Both the position numbers and the translations under genes were made by a program. From Bacteriovorax sp. BSW11_IV (lineage in GTDB: Bacteria; Bdellovibrionota; Bacteriovoracia; Bacteriovoracales; Bacteriovoracaceae): a stretch of DNA of 64,000 nt. Of this stretch, positions 38,569 to 46,826 are shown piece after piece (the stretch's first letter is position 1; every line of letters begins with the position of its first letter). The notes under the pieces are model-generated. The model saw only the letters and a list, made by a program, of their open reading frames with translations. It was not told the DNA's origin and did not search any database. The stretch covers positions 1 through 64,000 of the forward strand of contig NZ_AUNE01000030.1 of NCBI RefSeq assembly GCF_000447755.1, read 5' to 3'.

Positions 38569-40131
38569 ATGAATGAATATAACTTTGATGTCTTAATTAT
38601 TGGAACAGGTGTAGCGGGACTTTCGTCCGCTGCAAAACTTGCTGAGAGTAACCTGAAAATCGGGATAATCACTCGCGAGGCCGACCCCAATGTGACTAAT
38701 ACATACTGGGCACAGGGGGGAATAATCTATTCTAGTGCCGGTGATGAATCATTAATCGAAGATATCATTAAGGCCTCTTCAAATTCTTGTAATATCGAGG
38801 CGGCAAAAATTCTGACAAAAAGATCGGGGCGAATTCTTGAAGAAATGCTTCTTGAAAAAGCGCAAACGAATTTTGAAAGAGATGAAGGGAAATTGAAATT
38901 CACGCGAGAAGCCGCCCACTCAAAAGAGCGCATTCTTTATCAGGGTGATTTCACAGGAAAGGCCATTCAAGTTTCATTACTTAATTATCTAAAAGATAAA
39001 ACTCGCTTTCCTAATGTTTCAATTTTAACTCGTCATACGGCGATTGATTTACTAACACCTATTCACCATGGTGTTAAAATTCAACAACGTTATGAAGAAA
39101 ATAAAGTTGTGGGTGCTTACGTTTACAATCAAGAAATGAAACAAGTTGTAAAAGTCCTCGCAAAAAATACAATTCTTGCTACGGGTGGTATTGGTGCCAT
39201 TTATCTGCACCACTCGAACTCTGAAGGAGCAAGAGGCGATGGTCATGCCATGGCCAAGCGTGCGGGAGCACAACTAATTGATATGGAATTTATTCAATTC
39301 CATCCAACAACTTTTTATAACAGTTCTTCCCATAGAAGATTCTTAGTTTCTGAGGCCATTAGAGGAGAGGGAGGAGTTCTTCTAAACTGCAATGGCGAAA
39401 GATTTATGGAGAAATACCATCCTGATATGGAGCTCGCCCCTCGTGATGTTGTGGCAAGAGCGATCTTGGAAGAGACAATTGAAACTCGCCATGAATGTGT
39501 CTATCTAGATATTTCTCATAAAGATCCTGATTGGATTAAGAATCGCTTTCCGACAATTTACGCTCACTGTTTGGAAAATGGATTTGATATTACATTAAAG
39601 CCCATTCCAGTTGTTCCTGCTGCTCACTATACTTGTGGTGGAGTAAAAACAAATCTTAAAGGGCAAACAACTATTCCAAACTTATTCGCAGTAGGTGAGG
39701 TTGCTTGCACTGGATTGCATGGGGCCAATCGTCTCGCTTCCACTTCATTGTTGGAAGGTTTAACTTTTGGTTATATTGCCGCAGAAGAAATTCTTGAAAA
39801 TATCACAGCAGAAGAATCTTATCCTTCATATATGATTAAAGACTGGCAAGATGGAACAAAGCACACAGATCGCGCCCTAATTCATCAAGACTGGTTAACT
39901 TTAAAGCATACTATGTGGAACTATGTTGGTTTAACGAGAACATCAGACAGGCTTGGAAGAGCAAATGCTATGTTTCATGAGCTTCTAGATGAGATTGGCA
40001 AATTTTATAAGAAATGTGTTTTAACAGATGAGCTTATTGGAATTCGCAATGCTGTCGAAGTTGGACACATGGTCTTACAAGCTTCGAGAAGAAATCGCGA
40101 ATCCCTTGGATGCTTTTTTCGTAAGTCTTAG
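38569..40131 (+). CDS. nadB: L-aspartate oxidase
   Basis: FAD enzyme oxidising L-aspartate to iminoaspartate, the first step of NAD synthesis. 520 residues. The FAD fold starts at residue 7 with IIGTGVAGLSSAAKLAE; WAQGGI, GDGHAMAKRAGA, MEFIQFHPT, SEAIRGEGG, and PAAHYTCGGVKT followed by GEVACTGLHGANRLASTSLLEGL are all classic fumarate reductase/NadB motifs. A C-terminal helical domain completes it. nadA is not adjacent. Its stop overlaps the stop of the convergent methyltransferase gene by 4 nt. Confidence 0.95.
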   Translation: MNEYNFDVLIIGTGVAGLSSAAKLAESNLKIGIITREADPNVTNTYWAQGGIIYSSAGDESLIEDIIKASSNSCNIEAAKILTKRSGRILEEMLLEKAQTNFERDEGKLKFTREAAHSKERILYQGDFTGKAIQVSLLNYLKDKTRFPNVSILTRHTAIDLLTPIHHGVKIQQRYEENKVVGAYVYNQEMKQVVKVLAKNTILATGGIGAIYLHHSNSEGARGDGHAMAKRAGAQLIDMEFIQFHPTTFYNSSSHRRFLVSEAIRGEGGVLLNCNGERFMEKYHPDMELAPRDVVARAILEETIETRHECVYLDISHKDPDWIKNRFPTIYAHCLENGFDITLKPIPVVPAAHYTCGGVKTNLKGQTTIPNLFAVGEVACTGLHGANRLASTSLLEGLTFGYIAAEEILENITAEESYPSYMIKDWQDGTKHTDRALIHQDWLTLKHTMWNYVGLTRTSDRLGRANAMFHELLDEIGKFYKKCVLTDELIGIRNAVEVGHMVLQASRRNRESLGCFFRKS

Positions 40132-41033
40132 TTTTTAACAATAAGTAGAAATTCTTTTTTATGTGAGGGAAGTTGTAAGCAAACAACTTCCTTAAATTCT
40201 TTTCTCATCTTATCAATATAAAGAAGGCATTTTTTTAAGATATGTGGGTTACTTAGTTTAACCGTGATGAAGGCGCCTTTTAATCCTCTCGCTCTAAGTT
40301 TCATGAGTCTTTGAGATTCTTCGATAGATTGCTCAAAAGGAATATTCATATCATTTACAAGCCAATCCACATTTTCAGGTAAGTTTCTTGAACTCACTTT
40401 TTGAACGGAATCTAAAATATGTGTGAATGAGGGATTATCTAAAATACTTTGATCCATAAGGCCCGGATCAACTCCTATCACTTTGGCCCCTAATTCTAGC
40501 ATGCGAAGACTTGCACCACCTGGAGCACTTCCTAGTTCTAGAATCGTAGAGTTTTTAATTTCGGTCTGACTTAAAATGAGGGCCTCAGCAATTTTAAGAT
40601 AGGCCCTTGAAGGAGAGTGTTCAGGTAAAATAATGTTTGGGTTTGAGAATGGATAGGCCGATACATTCTTTGTGTGGATATGTTGACCTATCCAATATTC
40701 TTTATCTGATAGTTTGAAAATATCTGTTACGGTTTCACCTATCTGCGAAGGCTGGCCTTGATTAGAATTGAGCTCACCGTTAATCTCAATCATATGTTCT
40801 TGTGATGAAATTTCAACACTCGATTTTTTCTCAATGAACAGAGACGTTCTTAGAGAGAAAATGGGATTGATTTTTTCAAGCTCGTTTAATCCAATTTCTT
40901 TGTCGGCCTTAAATGAAATGAAATTCTTCTTTTGAAAACTTGGTCTCAAAAATTTGAAACGTGTTTCAATTTCATGTTTTAAATGGTTTTCATTTCCAGG
41001 AACAGTAAGGCAAAGAATAAATTGTGATTTCAT
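40128..41033 (-). CDS. RlmM/FtsJ-like rRNA 2'-O-methyltransferase
   Basis: 301 residues. The C-terminal half is a Rossmann SAM methyltransferase with LELGSAPGGASLRMLELGAKVIGVDP, preceded by PSRAYLKIAEAL. That stretch carries the first lysine of the K-D-K-E catalytic set used by FtsJ/RrmJ family 2'-O-methyltransferases; VNDMN and FITVKLS supply the D and second K. The N-terminal part looks like the THUMP-related region of RlmM, which modifies C2498 of 23S rRNA. Target is inferred, not shown. Confidence 0.82.
   Translation of the reverse strand: MKSQFILCLTVPGNENHLKHEIETRFKFLRPSFQKKNFISFKADKEIGLNELEKINPIFSLRTSLFIEKKSSVEISSQEHMIEINGELNSNQGQPSQIGETVTDIFKLSDKEYWIGQHIHTKNVSAYPFSNPNIILPEHSPSRAYLKIAEALILSQTEIKNSTILELGSAPGGASLRMLELGAKVIGVDPGLMDQSILDNPSFTHILDSVQKVSSRNLPENVDWLVNDMNIPFEQSIEESQRLMKLRARGLKGAFITVKLSNPHILKKCLLYIDKMRKEFKEVVCLQLPSHKKEFLLIVKN
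40168..40191 (+). terminator. Hairpin embedded in the rlmM-like gene, beyond nadB
   Basis: GGAAGTTG (40168-40175) and CAACTTCC (40184-40191) form a perfect 8-bp stem extendable to 10 with a G-U and an A-T. TTAAATTCTTTTC follows. It is 36 nt past the nadB stop and inside the opposing gene. Confidence 0.5.
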
Positions 41034-41053
41034 GCTGCGAACTATAATTCATC

Positions 41054-41308
41054 TTATATCTCTTGGGAATACTCGATGAAAAAAGAGCCGCGAGTAACCT
41101 CCTTGTAGAAAGTTCCTTTGAACTCATCGAAAGTTGCGTCCTGCAATTGTTCGATCGAGTTGTAAGGTGACTGAACTATTAAACCAAGAGAAATATTTTG
41201 AACTTGGAATGCCTTGATATTCACTTCTCTGTGTTCCGAGGCCCAAGCTTTTTGCGCTAAAAACATATTGATGAAACTTATGATTGAGTAAATTAAAATC
41301 CTGATCAT
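41054..41308 (-). CDS. Small secreted protein behind a structured leader
   Basis: 84 residues. A signal peptide ends AWA|S at about residue 23. The mature 60 residues are unremarkable and unrecognised. ATG 41308 is preceded by AAAGGGG and a T5 run. The RNA upstream (41309-41499) carries three strong stem-loops, so translation may be controlled by leader structure. It lies 191 nt downstream of the pentapeptide gene on the same strand. Confidence 0.6.
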   Translation of the reverse strand: MIRILIYSIISFINMFLAQKAWASEHREVNIKAFQVQNISLGLIVQSPYNSIEQLQDATFDEFKGTFYKEVTRGSFFIEYSQEI

Positions 41309-41499
41309 AAAAACCCCTTTTAAAGAAGGTCTCGTGCGGGTTCGTAAAAACCCGCACGGCCGAAAGAGTGGGTAGAGAGGTGTCCAGGGGAACTATCCGT
41401 AGTTCCTTGTCTGAAAAAGGTTAGTTGCTTCTTTAAGTATAAGGATGGTGCCTGACTTAAATACTCCCTGAAGCAAACAGACCGATATTGTGTCAGGTA
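41309..41499 (-). ncRNA. Candidate structured leader or small RNA
   Basis: Read on the minus strand, the interval contains CCTGAC...GTCAGG closing about 35 nt, then GGAACTA-CGGA-TAGTTCC, then a 9-bp stem GTGCGGGTT...AACCCGCAC (plus-strand 41334-41342 with 41349-41357). AATAC near the start can alternatively pair with GTATT, which competes with the first stem. The last bases CCTTCTTT can fold back on the AAAGGGG ribosome site. I do not recognise a known riboswitch class. Confidence 0.5.
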
Positions 41500-42054
41500 T
41501 TACGAAGCCAAATTAAATATGTGCATTAACGTTCTTGTCTTCTCTTCTAGGTATTCAGACAGAGAGAAAATATTCTCGTCCACAGGAATTGCTGGTGGAA
41601 CTTCATCCTCTGGAGCGCTGAGAACTTCTTCCCAACTCACTGGGCCAGCAAGGATACAACCGTGGAGCTCATTGTCCTCTTTATGAAGATAAAAAGAGGT
41701 CTTACCGTCGATTTTACATAAATTCAGTACGTTAGCAGAAAGAACTGTGAAATCCCAAAAGCAATTATCGAATGTTGTCGCTCTAAAGTCGCATTCAATA
41801 ATCTCGCCAAATTCGAATCTGCAATTCAAGAACTTGCAGCCTGAAAACGTGCAATTCTTAAAGACAGATCCATAAAAGACACAAGATTCGAAAGTCACGT
41901 CATTAAAAGTTGTGAGAGAGAAGAGAGAACCAGAAATACTTAACTTGTTAAGAACACGAGCATCAATAACTTCATTTTCGATTACCTCGTAATGAGCGAT
42001 GTCATGAACTTGGTTGTAAATAGGATTGAAGAATTTTGTTAATGTATTTTCCAT
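41500..42054 (-). CDS. Pentapeptide-repeat protein
   Basis: 184 residues, no signal peptide. Residues about 38-110 follow the A(D/N)LxX pentapeptide rhythm with central F or L: FNDVTF, ESCVF, KNCTF, SGCKF, LNCRF, IECDF, DNCFW. This predicts a right-handed quadrilateral β-helix of roughly four to five coils. It is unusually cysteine-rich at the turn positions. The C-terminal 70 residues leave the pattern. The gene is divergent from the HTH/VWA pair. Confidence 0.85.
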   Translation of the reverse strand: MENTLTKFFNPIYNQVHDIAHYEVIENEVIDARVLNKLSISGSLFSLTTFNDVTFESCVFYGSVFKNCTFSGCKFLNCRFEFGEIIECDFRATTFDNCFWDFTVLSANVLNLCKIDGKTSFYLHKEDNELHGCILAGPVSWEEVLSAPEDEVPPAIPVDENIFSLSEYLEEKTRTLMHIFNLAS

Positions 42055-42186
42055 GTGACCCCCGAACCCTGTGCTTTGAGCCCCCGATGGGTAGCTCTGA
42101 ACCGAGTATAGAATATCTGACTCGTTGCGTCAAGATATAAAATTGCATTAAGGAATTTTTTTGCAAAACCGATAGGGATTTCAAGC

Positions 42187-42214
42187 ACTCACGATGCAAT
42201 TTTTCTTCGTGAGT
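42187..42214. promoter_or_regulatory. Inverted repeat in the divergent promoter region
   Basis: ACTCACG (42187-42193) and CGTGAGT (42208-42214) form a 7-bp inverted repeat separated by 14 nt (centre-to-centre 21 bp, two helical turns), 51 nt before the HTH gene start. This spacing suits a dimeric regulator, perhaps the adjacent HTH protein itself. Confidence 0.45.
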
Positions 42215-42265
42215 CAAATTGAGATGACAAGTTTTCAGTAACTTAGGTCGTCGCAGGAGGATTCC

Positions 42266-42916
42266 ATGTCGAAATTTGATAAAGACAAATTGCAAGATTT
42301 TCTCGCGGTATGTAGCAAGTATATGAAATTACGTGACATATCGACTCAAAAGCAACTTGCAGATGAGATTGATGTTGGTGTCTCTACTATGAGTCGTTTC
42401 ATGTCTATGAAAGTAACGGACATAGATGATGTATTAGTTGCTAAAATAGTAGCAAAGCTTGCGATTCCTCCTATGGAAATTGCTGATTTTGTCGAAGAGG
42501 ATTATACGGATCAGTTCTTGCGACTGGTACGAGCATTTAGAGAGGGACCAGCTCCTTCTAATGAACAAGCTCAAGCACAAGGTGCTCCCGCGAAGGGCGC
42601 TGCTCAAACAGCGACGAGTAGTGTTGGTACCGAAAATGACTTTGATGCTGCGATAATTGCGACATTGGGTGTGGGGACACGCAATGCAAACGCAAACGTT
42701 AATATTGGTGGTCGTAAAGCAACTGTTCCTTTTCGTGCAGATGAAGGGGGCAGAAGTTCTGCTGATACACTACAAAATAAACTGGCCGAACTTACTCCAA
42801 GACAAAAGGCCTATATGACAGACTTTTTGCATCTTGATATTGAAGGAAGAGACTTAATTGTCGATCTTGGCAATGAGCTCTTTCGCTACTTCCGCCAGAA
42901 AGGATTGATTAGTTGA
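42266..42916 (+). CDS. HTH-domain protein coupled to a secreted VWA protein
   Basis: 216 residues with a strong AGGAGG ribosome site. Residues about 20-50 (RDISTQKQLADEIDVGVSTMSRFMSM) look like a Cro/XRE-type helix-turn-helix. A helical segment to about 93 follows, then an Ala/Gln/Gly-rich linker (95-150). A compact C-terminal helical domain contains LTPRQKAYMTDFLHLD. I do not recognise the whole protein. Its TGA overlaps the TTG start of the next gene by 4 nt. A DNA-binding regulator coupled to a secreted protein is unusual. Confidence 0.8.
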   Translation: MSKFDKDKLQDFLAVCSKYMKLRDISTQKQLADEIDVGVSTMSRFMSMKVTDIDDVLVAKIVAKLAIPPMEIADFVEEDYTDQFLRLVRAFREGPAPSNEQAQAQGAPAKGAAQTATSSVGTENDFDAAIIATLGVGTRNANANVNIGGRKATVPFRADEGGRSSADTLQNKLAELTPRQKAYMTDFLHLDIEGRDLIVDLGNELFRYFRQKGLIS

Positions 42917-46349: not shown

Positions 46350-46475
46350 TTCTATAGTCTAAGTGAATTCTCAGTGACTTATCTAAGTGTTAGGCCAGTC
46401 AAAAACTAGACAGTATTAATGGAGTTTCATAATTGTTAGAAAACAAGATCGTAGAATAAGATCATTAAAAAAAAA

Positions 46476-46826
46476 CCGAGCCAGCGTGTAAGCCGGGTCC
46501 TGTCGAGGACCATCATTCATCTAGGCCTACCGTTACCGATAGGCTCAAGCACCCAACCCGTCTGCTCAGGCTGGCAACCTTCAAGCACAGACCTATTTGG
46601 GCTTGCATCACGTAGAGTTTACCTGTTTTCACTACAGCAGGTGGACGAACCGTCGGAGTTTACCCGGCCGAAGCTACCATAAACGTCCTCAGACCCCTGT
46701 ACTTCCTTTCTGTTGCACTTGTCCTCACCTCACGGTGGACGGCCATTAACCGCTACATTGCCATACGATGCCCGGACTTTCCTCCCGAAAACCGAAGTTT
46801 TCCGGCGATGATCTCACTGACTCGGT
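46476..46826 (-). ncRNA. rnpB: RNase P RNA, bacterial class A
   Basis: The catalytic RNA that removes 5' leaders from tRNA precursors. Read on the minus strand it starts near CCGAGTCAG, whose P1 partner CTGGCTCGG is at the 3' end (one G-U). The universal GGAGGAAAGTCCGGGC block follows, then AACAGAAAGGAAGTACAG-like core elements, and near the 3' end GACAGGACCCGGCTTA. The last stem is followed by a run of nine T on that strand, which should terminate it. Overall length of about 350 nt is normal. Confidence 0.96.

Follow-up and report, generated by a model that had tools for sequence, protein, structure and literature searches.

CsrB and CsrC, together with RsmX, RsmY and RsmZ, are the products of dedicated sRNA genes of Gammaproteobacteria, carry many sites for CsrA and are under the control of BarA-UvrY or GacSA.

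RNA antagonists of CsrA have been described for the Gammaproteobacteria, with the protein antagonist FliW taken to fill that role in other groups, in the portions of two papers that deal with the subject (PMC7652899, PMC4682653). BarA-UvrY and fliW are reported in one of them to be strongly anti-correlated, and the control of CsrA by sRNAs in species with FliW is left open in the section concerned (PMC4682653); the anti-correlation is repeated in the corresponding part of a review (PMC7652899). A study of C. jejuni is concerned, according to its opening description, with CsrA where antagonizing sRNAs are absent (PMC4894983). RsmU of Xanthomonas campestris, in the sections of the paper drawn on here, is an RNA that binds RsmA and arises by processing from the comEA 3' UTR (PMC7694677), and RsmW of Pseudomonas aeruginosa is, in the corresponding sections of its own description, likewise a binder of RsmA derived from a 3' UTR (PMC4950607). 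The transcriptome of Bdellovibrio includes attack-phase sRNAs, and the term csr is absent from the main text of that report (PMC3627812). Nothing has been found in the open-licence literature that links Bacteriovorax with CsrA, or FliW with 'CsrA-binding sRNA'. Matches in the same literature for Bacteriovorax and sRNA are only unrelated work, judged by title, and those for CsrA and Bdellovibrio include none, by title, on an RNA of this kind. Among the matches listed for a pseudoknot sequestering CsrA, or for a CsrA/FliW/sRNA antagonist, none is on the subject by title.

Locus, host gene and downstream ORFs

The window of the current analysis is a stretch of 64,000 nucleotides from Bacteriovorax sp. 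BSW11_IV (contig NZ_AUNE01000030.1). A structured element occupies 41499 to 41309 of its minus strand. It lies immediately 3' of the stop codon that ends a pentapeptide-repeat gene and precedes an ORF of 84 residues. The pentapeptide-repeat gene (41500..42054, minus strand) encodes a protein of 184 residues that scores above the cut-off of the Pfam family Pentapeptide_3, and the element is the 3' UTR of its mRNA. This protein has been matched in 28 of 59 genomes, every one of them in the family of the window. Among the pentapeptide proteins of the loci L099-L137, 28 of the 38 that are readable end in -AA and the rest have a similar tail of small residues; that of the window ends in LAS. A C-terminus of this kind presumably resembles the ssrA/ClpXP degradation signal, which suggests that the pentapeptide protein may be short-lived.

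A divergent gene (42266..42916, plus strand) encodes an HTH regulator of 216 residues, with a match to the Pfam family HTH_26 of 21.1 bits, below the cut-off of 22. Of 52 loci, 51 contain a homologue of this regulator; the sole exception is L126, which begins inside the pentapeptide gene. The pentapeptide transcript is preceded by a sigma-70-type promoter-like sequence, TTGACG-17-TATACT (42105..42133, minus strand; 10 of 12 matches), and by an overlapping dyad, TGAC-N7-GTCA (within 42105..42133, minus strand, inside the promoter spacer), that is a putative operator. Among 35 spacers examined, 33 show the pattern of a TTGA-type element, 17 nt and TA...T, as a raw count with no chance control, and 21 of the 35 read TTGACGCAA-N3-GTCA with the TGAC-N7-GTCA dyad in the spacer. 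The dyad is likely to be the operator of the divergent HTH protein, which we infer to be the likely regulator of the pentapeptide/RNA unit.

The layout of this unit across the relatives is read as that of a promoter, the pentapeptide ORF, the RNA, a probable terminator and then a variable gene. The last hairpin of the RNA, P4 (41333..41358, minus strand), has a stem of 11 bp (CGTGCGGGTTT/GAACCCGCACG) followed by a weak U-tract (AGACCTTCTTTA) and is a possible leaky terminator; it is absent from the list produced by a terminator scan of the window, and its U-tract is poor. A hairpin behind the RNA has been found in 40 of 50 sequences, with stem sequences that differ among the relatives, and at least five T occur in the 12 nt after it in 28 of the 50, both counts having no chance control; the window has five.

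The order of HTH gene, pentapeptide gene, small ORF and methyltransferase gene is kept in another genome of the same genus (G001), in which the spacer also aligns. The FtsJ-like methyltransferase is encoded downstream of the unit at 40128-41033 (minus strand). Among the 52 loci checked, the window and L023 alone have it close to the unit, and related proteins are present in 24 of 59 genomes. A class A RNase P RNA has been identified by the Rfam scan at 46473-46824 (minus strand) of the window, and one is also found within the locus of the unit in L107 (1-240).

Comparison of the DNA of the segment with 59 genomes has revealed no clear relative, and outside its own genome only short matches were obtained, the longest of about 40 query bases. 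The relatives were reached through the pentapeptide protein. From 59 loci thus considered, L099-L137 (39 loci) were read, and L138-L157, with pentapeptide proteins mostly from other phyla, were left out. The working set of 53 sequences comprises these 39 loci, the window, L023 and 12 further sequences, to the exclusion of L047 and L050, which have the weakest pentapeptide matches among these further loci, and of further loci taken as repeats of the 39. L121 (contig end) together with L105 and L127 (runs of N) were dropped from the counts of motifs and hairpins, and L121 and L105 from the test of stem P2 described below.

A covariance model (R1), built from six sequences with no anchoring on the ANGGA motif, was searched in 52 sources and gave 28 matches up to an E-value of 1, namely the six builders, 21 others in place and one off-place (E-value 0.42). 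The search of relatives by such a model, proposed in the first-pass annotation of this segment as a check, has thus yielded 21 further copies in place, of which 14 have E-values below 0.01 (46 other sources searched). Of the 129 family genomes, 38 carry matches, 41 in all, to a later model (R2); this model re-found the loci used to build it, hence it mainly measures distribution and context, and its strict filters lose weak matches. All 30 of the R2 matches that were fetched (28 placed by script, L179 and L170 by inspection) lie directly behind a pentapeptide ORF on the same strand, the other 11 of the 41 being outside the fetched set. Derivation from the pentapeptide transcript, one of the three options originally offered for this RNA, is the option that fits best.

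The first-pass annotation had also put forward a switching leader, with the 84-residue protein (41054..41308, minus strand) as its target; this protein is small, signal-peptide-like and encoded downstream of the RNA. Such a leader, or a riboswitch acting in cis on this product, gains something from the position of the RNA, which ends just before the 84-residue ORF in the window and before a 99-residue ORF in L023, and P4 could serve as an attenuator. In at least 9 of 39 loci, as counted by eye, the RNA also has a small ORF with a signal-like N-terminus behind it (the window, L023, L025, L111, L099, L100, L101, L113 and L128). The sight of these ORFs raised the standing of a leader a little, from hardly credible to very improbable, and slightly lowered that of the explanation favoured below. 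Their sequences are dissimilar, however, and none was noted in the other 30 of the 39 loci. No homologue of the 84-residue protein has been detected by tblastn at an E-value of 1e-3 in 52 related loci including L023, and this tells against the leader. A protein search of whole genomes gave weak matches only, the one at the syntenic position in G001 (E-value 0.007, 30% identity) being no better than those elsewhere. The RNA is not placed upstream of a conserved class of gene, the 84-residue homologue being found in none of the 52 loci and the methyltransferase in one; the conserved neighbour is the upstream gene. The hairpin behind the RNA has, moreover, a U-rich tail in the 28 of 50 sequences mentioned above, and no riboswitch family was matched by Rfam in the window and 20 relative loci. 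The 84-residue ORF is probably read through and is probably not a conserved partner of the RNA.

The same Rfam scan at gathering thresholds (window and 20 relative loci) reported only RNase P and gave no match to the element, which agrees with the original description of a structured RNA that could not be assigned to a known riboswitch. With E-values up to 10, three snoRNA matches were obtained in 41000-42300 of the window, all far below their cut-offs. None of CsrB, CsrC, RsmX/Y/Z and the other Rfam families is matched by the element.

Fold of the RNA

A recurring layout is seen behind the pentapeptide stop codon across the loci of the relatives. It begins, on the minus strand of the window, with the 5' strand of the pseudoknot helix P1 (CCTGAC, 41492..41497), which covaries in relatives, the window's own P1 being misaligned in the alignment used. 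A loop, the 5' strand of P2 (TTGCTTC, 41470..41476) and a first ANGGA site (AGGGA, 41465..41469), kept in relatives and located at the junction between P2 and P1, come next. They are followed by the 3' strand of P1 (GTCAGG, 41451..41456), placed by helix covariation, another loop and the 3' strand of P2 (GAAGCAA, 41425..41431), both strands of P2 having been placed by an ANGGA-anchored stem search and by covariation. Beyond P2 there is a UAUCU-like single strand, then the covarying hairpin P3 (stem GGAACTA/TAGTTCC, outer CAG/CTG; 41384..41414, minus strand), which has a second conserved ANGGA site (ACGGA, 41396..41400, minus strand) in its apical loop, and finally the G+C-rich hairpin P4. The single strand between P2 and P3 (41415-41424 of the window, minus strand) recurs as a UAUCU/UACCU-like sequence in many relatives.

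The fold of the minus strand of 41280-41510 is only moderately more stable than expected by chance (z -2.37, with 6 of 200 shuffles at least as stable), and the plus strand folds comparably (z -2.85). Folding energy therefore cannot settle the strand, which is settled by the conservation in relatives.

Stem P2 beside ANGGA reaches p<=0.05 against 200 dinucleotide shuffles each in 34 of 46 tested rows and is non-significant in 12; 51 rows entered this test, five had no ANGGA in the searched range, and the search for the stem was anchored on that motif. P1, with the rows taken one at a time, is weak: 8 of 36 rows reach p<=0.05 and 1 of 36 reaches 0.01. Its Fisher sum is 164 on 72 degrees of freedom, from rows that are related and p-values that are thus not independent.

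Two alignments have been used for the counting of covariation. A3 is a plain MAFFT alignment, built with no use of structure, of 30 rows that were chosen by eye among the 53 sequences for their P1-P3 layout; in it the 3' strand of P2 is out of register, as is P1 of the window. A5 is fitted to the model, leans towards its own structure and includes one off-place row (L101:791), which appears, by distance, to be the same site as the second R2 match in G098. Since A3 misaligns the 3' strand of P2, the pairs of P2 and P3 were counted on A5 and those of P1 on A3.

The 28 rows of A5 have 95.6% of the cells paired over the 15 pairs of P2 and P3. Changes on both sides are found in 13 of these pairs and in 101 cells, against 29.6 cells in shuffles, and the covariation score is 0.628, against 0.215 in shuffled and 0.062-0.131 in slid alignments. 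P1 is 91.4% paired in the 30 rows of A3, a percentage that is a maximum since its register is the best of 108 column pairs, with a score of 0.492 against 0.225 shuffled and 28 cells changed on both sides against 6.3. The next four best registers fall on the same diagonal. A second segment of P1, GAUAA/UUAUC, is weaker (74.8% paired), and both segments together are 82.9% paired. Covariation in relatives, which had been named beforehand as a check on the structure, is thus present in P1 as well as in P2 and P3.

The stems noticed in the first-pass annotation are present on the minus strand and conserved, with the exception of one pairing. That annotation had set CCTGAC/GTCAGG against AATAC/GTATT as mutually exclusive partners. 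The former, P1, is kept in relatives with compensatory changes; the latter is not kept, the nearest relative (L023) reading AATATG in the alignment where the window has GTATT. The stem TTGCTTC/GAAGCAA (P2), which had not been named, is also kept with compensatory changes. P1 and P2 both covary and cross each other, which argues for a pseudoknot and not for two exclusive states. As judged from these alignments, the two helices would combine into a pseudoknot of the H type, in which ANGGA is the loop at the junction, and the element is a real, conserved, covarying and pseudoknotted 3'-UTR RNA of the window's family.

ANGGA motifs and the proposed role of CsrA

The first 140 nt of 50 3' UTRs contain a mean of 2.08 ANGGA motifs, against 0.78 in shuffled sequences and 0.30 on the opposite strand. 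At least one motif is found in 47 of these 3' UTRs (26.1 expected) and at least two in 38, and three of the 50 are without any. The ratio to shuffles is the highest among the 256 patterns of the form xNyzw. Behind 29 pentapeptide ORFs there are 2.48 motifs per 140 nt, against 0.45 behind 220 other ORF ends, and at least two motifs are present in 97% of the pentapeptide ends against 7% of the others (window and L099-L137); the 220 control ends are those of mechanical ORFs of at least 150 residues on both strands, of unchecked gene status, and their 140 nt may be coding.

All 27 correctly placed rows of A5 have an ANGGA in the first 55 nt, and 25 of them have one beyond nt 75. The residue N is A in 16, T in 8, G in 2 and C in 1 at the first site, and A in 15, T in 6 and C in 4 at the second, which is missing from two rows. 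A Shine-Dalgarno mimic has been set aside because N varies, as CsrA allows and as is unexpected for a mimic. A type III antitoxin RNA has also been set aside, the partner here being a pentapeptide protein.

Relatives in which P2 was not found (L045, L048, L049, L124 and L135) have simple hairpins with ANGGA in the loop, as exemplified by TGCCAAGGATGGCA in L048, GGCCATGGATGGCC in L135 and TCCCAAGGATGGGA in L124. When lowest-energy folds are computed with pseudoknots disallowed, 28 of 47 sequences have the GGA core within a hairpin loop, a count with no shuffled control, and the covarying P3 places the second site in a loop of its own. We take an ANGGA in a loop to be a site for CsrA (RsmA); the papers cited here speak of GGA motifs.

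The genome of the window encodes CsrA (MLVLTRK...HREEVYQSI; 91.3 bits), and the gene of FliW adjoins it. This CsrA retains the LVLTRK and HREE segments, which presumably have a role in RNA binding. CsrA is found above the cut-off in 35, and FliW in 36, of the 38 RNA-bearing genomes. G100 (56% complete) has neither protein; G033 has the RNA and neither protein, both genomes of its genus having both; and in G017 a piece of csrA that scores below the cut-off lies at the end of a contig, next to FliW.

The element is proposed to be a CsrA-binding 3'-UTR RNA that titrates CsrA, with the binding predicted from the motifs, and this is the reading that we favour, as somewhat more probable than not. 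Transcription would start at the sigma-70-type promoter, under the presumed control of the divergent HTH protein, and the transcript would cross the pentapeptide gene and largely stop at P4. Its 3' end would fold into the H-type pseudoknot of P1 and P2, with ANGGA as the junction loop, followed by P3 with the second ANGGA in its apical loop. Each ANGGA would present a CsrA (RsmA) site, and one RNA could hold one CsrA dimer. Once the unit is turned on, free CsrA would be titrated, either by the mRNA itself or by an sRNA processed out of its 3' end.

Against titration, there are only two or three ANGGA motifs per RNA, few for a sponge, and CsrB carries many more CsrA sites than that. Model matches are also restricted to 38 of the 129 family genomes, under strict filters that lose weak ones.

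The main rival is that the binding of CsrA affects the parent mRNA alone, the 3' UTR acting in cis on how stable its own pentapeptide mRNA is, or on how it is translated, with no depletion of CsrA. We consider this unlikely, if a serious contender. The usual site of action of CsrA is in 5' UTRs, and action in cis would seem to need less than a tail so strongly structured and with two conserved sites. The joining of the RNA to the same gene in all 30 fetched matches, and its merely two or three sites, speak on the other hand for this rival, as does the lower stability of the RsmU parent mRNA in the absence of RsmA, given in the sections concerned (PMC7694677).

A further alternative is that the structured 3' UTR serves to protect or mature the mRNA, or is bound by another protein, in which case ANGGA would be a feature of that other ligand. 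The recurring UAUCU-like strand between P2 and P3, which has no place in the CsrA model, would be accommodated by such a ligand, and CsrA binding is here a prediction. The ANGGA in loops with a free N is, however, the signature of CsrA and is kept even in the relatives in which P2 was not found, so that another ligand appears improbable.

With regard to the favoured titration of CsrA, a caution comes from RsmU, in which RsmA binding and function were both not abolished when all four GGA motifs were mutated, according to section 2.5 of its description (PMC7694677). GGA motifs alone therefore do not prove the mechanism.

Comparison with known RNAs

The RNA identified in the current analysis is a strong candidate for a CsrA antagonist in a lineage with FliW, as far as comparative sequence data indicate, and is without a match in Rfam as searched. 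It offers a concrete candidate open to testing in the FliW-encoding relatives of Bacteriovorax, and the conserved unit of three parts (HTH regulator, pentapeptide protein and RNA tail) is open to genetics. The pseudoknot is suggested to be a means of displaying the CsrA site. More tentatively, this could be the first CsrA-titrating RNA in a FliW lineage, one in which a pseudoknot displays a CsrA site in the 3' UTR of an mRNA under the control of a regulator. Such an RNA would give the predatory Bacteriovoracaceae a second, transcriptionally controlled input to CsrA, possibly for the switch from attack to growth. If true, a family that preys on other bacteria would have a built-in RNA brake on the global regulator CsrA.

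The present RNA shares with CsrB/CsrC and RsmX/Y/Z, as these are treated in the relevant part of the review, the common recognition motif and, by proposal, the role of a CsrA antagonist (PMC7652899). The TwoAYGGAY motif, compared here by name only, implies by that name two AYGGAY elements, as there are two ANGGA here, and is listed in the catalogue entry from human gut, Gammaproteobacteria and Clostridiales (PMC2864571). It was not reported by the Rfam scans of the current analysis, which would detect it only if Rfam includes it.

RsmU is, like the present RNA, reported to be without an Rfam homologue; it differs in its parent gene and in having four GGA motifs in its long form or three in its short form, in the sections that describe it (PMC7694677). 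RsmW also comes from another parent gene and has been demonstrated to bind RsmA. Three of its seven GGA motifs are on outer loops, and a pseudoknot is not mentioned in the sections drawn on (PMC4950607). Its host is a Gammaproteobacterium, a class described in the review passage on the subject as without fliW (PMC7652899), whereas the lineage of the present RNA encodes FliW.
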